NCBI GenBank assembly: GCA_024399015.1
Contig: JAKSIC010000015.1
Location: forward strand, 1-64,000
DNA length: 64,000 nucleotides
Direction: 5' to 3'
Source: Fibrobacter sp.
GTDB lineage: Bacteria > Fibrobacterota > Fibrobacteria > Fibrobacterales > Fibrobacteraceae
This document shows positions 55,529 to 56,638 of the stretch, in pieces (the first letter of the stretch is position 1; the number at the start of each line of letters is the position of its first letter). The position numbers and the translations under genes were made by a program. Under the pieces are notes generated by a model. It was not told where the DNA came from. It was given only the letters and a program-made list of their open reading frames with translations, and searched no databases.

Positions 55529-55532
55529 AAAA

Positions 55533-55564
55533 AATCCCCCGCATTTCTGCGAGGGATTCTTTTT
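55533..55564 (+). terminator. Rho-independent terminator after the HD-GYP gene
   Basis: Stem aatcccccgc (55533-55542) with gcgagggatt (55549-55558), one mismatch, then CTTTTT. Confidence 0.85.
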
Positions 55565-55604: not shown

Positions 55605-56264
55605 TTATGCTTCTTCGTCGGAGAGTTCCGGAGCCTTCTTGATCACGTTGCGGCGGCCGTAGCGAACCTTGGACGGATCGAAAGTGGTTTCAACCGGGGC
55701 GATATCGTCTTCAGCGACAACCGGAGCAACAGGTGCTGCGGGAGCTGCGACGGGAGCGGCCGGAGTTTCAACCGGAATACGCGGAGCCAGCGGGCGGCGT
55801 TCTGCTGCGGGAGCGGCAGGAGCTTCAGCGGCTGCGGGTGCTGCTGCAGGAGCTGCGGGAGCTGCAACCGGTGCTGCTGCCTGAGCTTCTACGTTGTTGT
55901 TTTCACGACGAGGACGTTCGGGACGGCCTTCGCGACGGTCGCGGCGGTTGCCACGATCCTGACGCTGTTCGTTGTTGCGATTTGCCGGCTGCTGCTGAGC
56001 AGGAGCTGCCTTTTCGCGGTTTTCCTTTGCAGGACGGTCCTTACCGTTGTTGTTCTGGCGATTTTCCTTGTTAGCCTTTTCACCGCGCTGAGCCATTTCC
56101 TGGCCGTTGATCGGGCGGCGGGAATTCGGCTTCAAGTTCATGTCCGGTGTGAGCTTCTTGAAAATCGGGGTACGAAGCATAGTAAGGAGCTTGTTAACCT
56201 TAGAAAGGATAACAATGCACAGAATCACTGCTACGAGAGACAGTGCGATTGCGATGTATTCCAT
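55605..56264 (-). CDS. Single-pass membrane protein with disordered Arg/Asn-rich and Ala/Pro-rich tail
   Basis: The 219-residue protein has one N-terminal helix (MEYIAIALSLVAVILCIVIL) and a short amphipathic segment (KVNKLLTMLRTPIFKKL). Low-complexity sequence follows: Asn/Gln/Lys/Glu and RDRGNRRDRREGRPERPRR-like (about 55-120), then Ala-Pro repeats with APAAPAAAPAAAEAP (about 125-190), and a conserved-looking end (RYGRRNVIKKAPELSDEE). The basic tract could bind RNA or the membrane surface. ATG 56264 with GAGGTG upstream is preferred to GTG 56273. It is preceded by a long structured leader. I do not recognise a family. Confidence 0.65.
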   Translation of the reverse strand: MEYIAIALSLVAVILCIVILSKVNKLLTMLRTPIFKKLTPDMNLKPNSRRPINGQEMAQRGEKANKENRQNNNGKDRPAKENREKAAPAQQQPANRNNEQRQDRGNRRDRREGRPERPRRENNNVEAQAAAPVAAPAAPAAAPAAAEAPAAPAAERRPLAPRIPVETPAAPVAAPAAPVAPVVAEDDIAPVETTFDPSKVRYGRRNVIKKAPELSDEEA

Positions 56265-56482
56265 TCGGGGCACCTCATAAGTAAGGGTTAACCGTGCGTA
56301 CAGGCTGGAAATAAACCCATAGGCCGGTGTGACTTGCTGCGTTTAGTTAAGGGGCCATCTTAATTGCCTTGAACAAGGCTACGCCTCCTAGAGGCTTGAC
56401 GGCAAAGGGCTTCGGGCAATAATTGGGCCAGCGAAGCGGGTTTAGGGTCCCCACCGTAGCGGCGGACCTAGCAGTCACGCGC
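56265..56482 (-). ncRNA. Structured RNA leader, about 215 nt, class unrecognised
   Basis: On the minus strand a -10-like TATATT (56490-56485) precedes RNA ending at the start of the membrane-protein gene. Five hairpins can be drawn: 56446-56468 (ggtcc/ggacc), 56409-56437 (gcttcg/cgaagc with an inner ggc/gcc), 56383-56395 (gcctc/gaggc), 56366-56379 (gccttg/caaggc) and 56347-56363 (ttaag/cttaa). All lie inside a closing pair 56329-56334 with 56473-56478 (gtgact/agtcac), extended by GC pairs. This looks like a multibranched riboswitch or attenuator, or a small RNA. It does not show motifs of RNase P, tmRNA, SRP, or the common riboswitches I can recall. Upstream, 56483-56638 holds the promoter and a gggatttaatccc palindrome (56501-56513) and nothing else I can name. 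Confidence 0.6.
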
Positions 56483-56638
56483 CAAATATAGATAATTTTC
56501 GGGATTTAATCCCAAGTTTATTCACAAAAAATCCCCCAATCCGACGGACTGGAGGTGGCGGTTTGAGATTTTTCGTCAAAAAAAGGCTTTTTAGGGGTAA
56601 ATACGCGAATCACCGAGCCGGGATTTATTTGCCCATGT

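Follow-up and report, generated by a model that had tools for sequence, protein, structure and literature searches.

Background

In gammaproteobacteria, the gene for RNase E (rne) is preceded by a 5' UTR that forms a long structured leader and serves feedback control; its product is linked to the membrane and has an arginine-rich disordered tail. Leaders also precede ribosomal protein genes, among them rpsO (ribosomal protein S15) of E. coli and mycobacteria. The S15 leaders of different phyla are several unrelated RNAs (PMC5100602).

Here we describe a leader in Fibrobacter, a main cellulose degrader of herbivore guts. It makes the control of a widespread, unannotated membrane protein testable, and it also gives a lead to the function of that protein, since the arginine-rich tract of the protein may bind RNA.

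Sequences and alignments

The DNA is from Fibrobacter sp. (assembly GCA_024399015.1, contig JAKSIC010000015.1, positions 1 to 64,000 of the forward strand). The whole stretch of 64,000 nt is referred to as the window; the leader and the regulated gene both lie on its minus strand. A covariance model of the leader was built from 30 sequences, all of them from the genus (Fibrobacter, g1). Covariation was tested with our own implementation, which works in the manner of R-scape with a tree-based (phylogeny-aware) null. Alignment A1 comprises 30 genus sequences aligned by sequence only (21,945 column pairs), and alignment A4 is wider and covers several genera (21,321 column pairs). Genera and loci are cited by our own labels (g and L).

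Results and discussion

Layout of the locus

The gap 56265-56490 opens with the promoter box TATATTTG, runs into a folded RNA and abuts the ATG at 56264 on the minus strand (Table 1). An earlier reading of the letters alone (the sequence-only reading) had placed a highly structured leader between a promoter box and the gene start. This was borne out: the minus strand of 56265-56480 folds with a closing helix and a series of hairpins, the last of which lies over the Shine-Dalgarno sequence. The box, as TATATTTG or TAAATTTG, occupies the same place in nearly all relatives, and as TAAATTAG in g6. It follows the pattern TAnnTTTG, the -7 element of Bacteroidota (PMC7366714), which as such is not rare within the window. 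The leader is probably not transcribed from upstream, because the upstream gene ends in a terminator-like hairpin of its own. As the regulated gene is in turn followed by a hairpin with a T run, the transcript is probably that of a single gene. No terminator-like site was found on the minus strand within 56265-56480, which speaks against a transcription attenuator, where an intrinsic terminator would lie in the leader.

Table 1. Features of the leader locus in the direction of transcription (positions in the window)
Feature	Position	Strand	Basis
Terminator-like hairpin of the upstream gene	56533..56555	-	terminator scan
Promoter box TATATTTG, TAnnTTTG type as in Bacteroidota	56483..56490	-	sequence; same spot in relatives
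Structured 5' leader RNA, ~215 nt	56265..56480	-	conservation in the genus and further genera; covariation
P1 closing helix, 5' strand (GUGACUGC)	56471..56478	-	compensatory pairs AU/GC, CG/UA, CG/GC; ranks 1, 2 and 7 among all column pairs
P2 hairpin	56446..56468	-	both-sided change in 8/9 pairs
P3 hairpin, varies between lineages	56409..56438	-	predicted fold; variable region of alignment A1
P4, 5' strand GCCGUC	56398..56403	-	outermost P4 pair covaries G-C/A-U
P5 hairpin atop P4	56383..56395	-	both-sided change in 3/5 pairs; significant in A1 and A4
P5b extra hairpin, near relatives only	56366..56379	-	4/30 aligned sequences (L002, L004, L005, L007)
P4, 3' strand GAUGGC	56354..56359	-	as for P4 5' strand
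P1 closing helix, 3' strand (GCAAGUCAC)	56329..56337	-	as for P1 5' strand
P6 hairpin, invariant UUUCCA apical loop (loop 56306-56315)	56299..56321	-	both-sided change in 2/7 pairs; one pair E = 0.04
P7 small hairpin CCUUACUUAUGAGG over the Shine-Dalgarno sequence	56273..56286	-	predicted in consensus and single-sequence fold
Shine-Dalgarno sequence GAGGUG	56271..56276	-	sequence; GAGGT invariant in alignment A3
Start codon and codons 2-3 (AUG GAA UAC), putative partner of the P6 loop	56256..56264	-	GAA at codon 2 in 62/64 distinct loci
Regulated gene, 219 aa	55605..56264	-	translation
Terminator-like hairpin and T run 3' of the gene	55530..55560	-	sequence

Search for known RNA families

The sequence-only reading had matched the leader to no known RNA class, and our searches agree. 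With the curated cut-offs of Rfam release 15 (4,227 families) there was no match in the window; a relaxed threshold yielded chance-level matches only, none of them over the body of the leader. A search of open-access papers found no description of this Fibrobacter leader.

The same reading had kept the alternative of an independent small RNA. Such an RNA, whether similar to 6S or of another sort, would lie upstream of the gene by chance or be processed from the leader. A promoter box and an elaborate fold would suit it, and the place of 6S RNA might seem vacant, as the Rfam 6S model matches nothing in the source genome, though tmRNA and RNase P RNA were detected. However, we consider an independent RNA very improbable, because the conserved fold extends as far as the Shine-Dalgarno sequence and the start codon, and no terminator separates RNA and gene. 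In addition, the two stay linked while their neighbours change, and the multi-branched fold is unlike that of 6S RNA. The leader is not tmRNA or RNase P RNA either, as the genome has these elsewhere (contigs C33 and C3, respectively).

Fold of the leader

The conserved order of elements, as comparison shows, is P1 enclosing P2, P3 and P4/P5, next P6 and last the tail with the Shine-Dalgarno sequence. P1 is the conserved closing helix, and it encloses only the first ~150 nt. The sequence-only reading had drawn a closing stem that joins both ends of the leader. Its outermost part is not conserved and in the fold uses letters of the promoter; even in its best conserved version, GCGCC with GGUGC, this stem forms in no more than ~81% of cells and leaves no compensation possible. 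It was thus dropped as the closing helix, whereas the inner P1 is retained on account of its compensatory changes. Compensatory change also speaks for P2, P4, P5 and P6, and P5b turned out to be confined to a few close relatives. P7 is a predicted hairpin; its letters do not vary within the genus and give covariation nothing to work on.

Genus g6 has its own version of P4, GCCGUU with AAUGGC. Downstream of P4 and before the 3' strand of P1, two loci of genus g1 (L017 and L018) carry ~80 extra nt with more hairpin-like sequence; their core is unchanged. The conserved unpaired letters of the multi-branched fold are GUCAAG, UAAGAUGG and UUUCCA. The most conserved stretch of the whole leader, AACCCUUACUUAUGAGGUGCC, includes the Shine-Dalgarno sequence. 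Motifs of this type are enriched before starts in the window (9/39 first ATGs versus 2.7 expected), which indicates that the genome uses them at least in part.

Folding energy and covariation

The impression of an exceptional stability of the leader did not hold. Folding from the likely transcription start gives a folding-energy z of -1.6, and adding the promoter box lowers this to -2.7; 9.4% of 225-nt segments of the window (n=512) reach a z as low as that of the leader. Its single-sequence folding energy is ordinary for the window. On these values alone, a GC-rich gap without function might fold in this way by chance. However, the conservation across genera and the covariation described below contradict this explanation, and we find it hardly credible.

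In alignment A1, both-sided changes occur in 16 of the 41 predicted pairs. When a structure of 35 pairs is considered, 94.9% of cells are paired; sliding one strand reduces this to 35-45%. Both-sided changes number 82, versus 24 in shuffles. Compensatory change supports P1, P2, P4, P5 and P6. With all 21,945 column pairs of A1 tested, no pair reached E <= 0.05; with only the pairs of the structure tested, two were significant, one in P5 and one in P1. In A4, which was fitted to the covariance model and thus favours the pairs of the model, structure pairs take ranks 1-6 of 21,321 column pairs under the tree-based null, and 8 pairs have E < 0.05 when tested within the structure set. The pair at rank 7 of A4 (columns 16-423) is a further pair of P1 that is absent from the model. 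Judged from these alignments, the leader has the conserved structure with compensatory changes that is characteristic of structured cis-regulatory leaders.

Distribution among relatives

The sequence-only reading had named conservation and covariation among related genomes as the check on a functional RNA, and both were found. By blastn, the DNA of the leader is conserved in 56/61 genus genomes. Among 80 genus genomes, the covariance model detects the leader in 74; it also detects it in 7 genomes of three further genera (g5, g10, g11). The six genus genomes without the leader also lack the gene, and their assemblies are incomplete. There is one copy per genome, apart from one mixed assembly and one copy split at a contig end, and the core motif of the leader occurs a single time in the whole source genome. 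Viral contigs, searched with an exact pattern, gave no match.

Loci picked by their protein were searched with the genus-only model, and matches directly upstream of the same gene were obtained in g5, g6, g7, g10 and g11; the model found no match at the loci of g2, g3, g4, g12, g14 and g15. By these matches, the leader occurs in at least five genera of the family beyond Fibrobacter. Genus g9 is counted as a carrier by eye only. P1 and P6 are retained in g7, g9 and g11, where the P4/P5 core is missing, and the 3' module of P6, Shine-Dalgarno hairpin and AUG is common to all genera with the leader.

At every locus read, the leader runs up to a start codon, and the gene that begins there encodes a homologue of the same protein. 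The adjoining genes are not the same in the genus, g5, g6 and g11. Because neighbours differ between genera, we conclude from the compared loci that the leader travels with the gene and not with the locus; its place directly upstream of the homologous gene is fixed whatever the neighbourhood, as in other structured leaders. Together with the significant covariation, this agrees with the suggestion of the sequence-only reading that the RNA is cis-regulatory, and we are highly confident that it is a conserved cis-regulatory leader.

Other sequences stand before the homologous gene in some genera. In g14 (L136, L137, L138, L140) a different leader follows a TATAAT box, and its closing stem reads CAGGUG...CACCUG or AAGGUG...CACCUU, with a compensatory C-G/A-U change. 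In g15 (L133, L134, L135, L139) a conserved GCGUCC...GGACGC (inside CGGGG...) is found some 80-110 nt upstream of the start codon and is possibly another structured leader. At most loci of g2, g3 and g4 (L120-L132), the leader is replaced by a small ORF, (M)AFVTAVLGISIFLLLTFILSLLSRINLLERQI..., as seen by eye.

The regulated gene and its product

The 219-aa product has one membrane helix (residues 3-20), an arginine-rich tract (96-121), a tail rich in alanine and proline and the conserved end RYGRRNVIKK. Relatives were found in 113 of 168 genomes of the phylum. The protein matched no Pfam family above cut-off and no solved structure. The gene neighbourhood was discarded as a clue to function, as the neighbours are not conserved. 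An RNase E-like assignment was likewise rejected, since the similarity is weak (E = 0.005) and probably driven by composition.

The RNase E/G of the source genome itself (L142/L143, G000:C6:22957-25770, minus strand) consists of two copies of the catalytic type, which lie in tandem within a single open frame and are 55% identical. The second copy has lysine for two aspartates of the E. coli RNase E catalytic motifs (IDVN to IKVN, IVDFIDM to IIKFPEI) and appears to be an inactive half.

Possible pairing of the P6 loop with the start codon

In nearly all genomes the P6 loop has the sequence UUUCCA, which is complementary to the AUGGAA made up of start codon and codon 2. The complementarity extends over 4-7 nt across all loci, with L018 down to 4 pairs. 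In g9 and g6 the stem differs but UUCCA is retained: the AUUCCA loop of g9 sits on a GCGUU/AACGC stem and is still complementary to the start, and the same is true of CUUCCA in g6. In L099 (g11), codon 2 has changed from GAA to GUA and the loop from UUUCC to UUACC (it reads UUUACC), so that 6 pairs are kept. This is the only compensatory event between loop and codon 2. Matches of 5-6 nt between the U-rich P6 loop and start regions are found at 20 of 63 ORF starts, which gives the chance level, and GAA is frequent at codon 2 also in relatives without the leader. Because the compensatory event is single, chance matches are frequent and GAA is common without the leader, we consider a pseudoknot between the P6 loop and the start codon to be evenly balanced between true and false.

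A proposed model for control of translation initiation

We propose that the ~215-nt leader acts on the downstream membrane-protein gene by controlling its translation initiation; action at this step is probable in our view. In the folded state, P7 would hide the Shine-Dalgarno sequence, and the UUUCCA loop of P6 would pair with the start codon in a pseudoknot that extends into codon 2. Less certainly, the upstream P1-P5 domain may bind a regulator that sets the balance. Our favoured guess for this regulator is the gene product, whose arginine-rich disordered tract could bind RNA and thereby provide feedback on its own amount. Taken as a whole, the observations are best explained by a leader that controls translation by hiding the start site and that most likely serves the arginine-rich product as an autogenous operator; we hold this with moderate confidence. 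Autoregulation by this product, which the sequence-only reading had listed among its options, is plausible; autogenous control as such we put somewhat below an even chance.

Two sequence elements were considered for other roles and rejected. The P5 strand GCYUC could serve as an anti-Shine-Dalgarno sequence in 30/30 genus sequences if G-U pairs are allowed, but the fit fails in L096, L097, g10 and g6; the complementarity is probably a by-product of P5. An AUG in P4 (GAUGGC) is conserved and might start a leader peptide, but the frame after it ends at differing places in relatives, as judged by eye.

In a riboswitch, a small molecule or ion would be bound by the P1-P5 domain and the 3' module would switch translation. 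The multi-branched fold, with conserved unpaired letters just before an expression platform that holds the Shine-Dalgarno sequence and the AUG, has the appearance of such a device. However, riboswitches usually control several genes, and here there is one copy per genome, always before the same gene of unknown function. The absence of the P4/P5 core from g7, g9 and g11, where P1 and P6 remain, would be unusual for a ligand pocket, and no Rfam riboswitch matched. We therefore regard a riboswitch as unlikely. The occurrence of a single gene, a single copy and a single core motif per genome points towards the autogenous leaders more than towards riboswitches; as in operators of the rpsO type, there is one RNA class per gene and one copy per genome.

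Translation might instead be governed by another factor, such as a different RNA-binding protein, a small RNA, cleavage by an RNase or melting with temperature. It fits this possibility that all leader-bearing genera retain the 3' module by itself (P6, Shine-Dalgarno hairpin and AUG) and that P7 is short and easily melted. Still, a simple thermometer needs no elaborate upstream domain and the data point to no specific factor, and control of this sort seems to us rather unlikely. The autogenous model could also be taken one step further: the leader would then represent a new class of autogenous operator, through which a disordered scaffold protein that is anchored in the membrane, binds RNA and is unrelated to ribosomal proteins controls its own synthesis, with a leader hairpin loop pairing directly with the start codon. 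This extension is speculative, and we give it a minor chance.

Comparison with known systems

With 6S RNA the leader shares a similar length, an own promoter and a closing helix like P1. Unlike 6S RNA, it does not form one long rod interrupted by a central bubble, it holds the start site of a gene and it has no Rfam match.

The rpsO leader is likewise a 5' leader adjoining one gene, in both E. coli and mycobacteria, and its ribosome-binding site lies within a structure or pseudoknot. The counterparts here would be the predicted Shine-Dalgarno hairpin and the candidate loop-start pairing with its one compensatory event. The gene described here does not encode a ribosomal protein, however, the leader is larger and has a multi-branched upstream domain, and binding by the protein is only proposed. 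As in our case, leaders of ribosomal protein genes are found with one gene per RNA and one copy per genome; the 219-aa protein differs in that no rRNA-like target is known for it. A further likeness concerns the genera g14 and g15 of the same class of bacteria, which appear, from four sequences each, to carry different stems before the homologous gene, much as the S15 leaders differ across phyla.

The rne 5' UTR has in common with our leader that it is long and structured and that it precedes the gene for a membrane-linked protein with an arginine-rich disordered tail, while feedback is only proposed here. In contrast to RNase E, the 219-aa protein is without a nuclease domain, and its leader is without an Rfam match. 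We class the Fibrobacter leader as a family not described before, within a kind of regulatory RNA that is already known.
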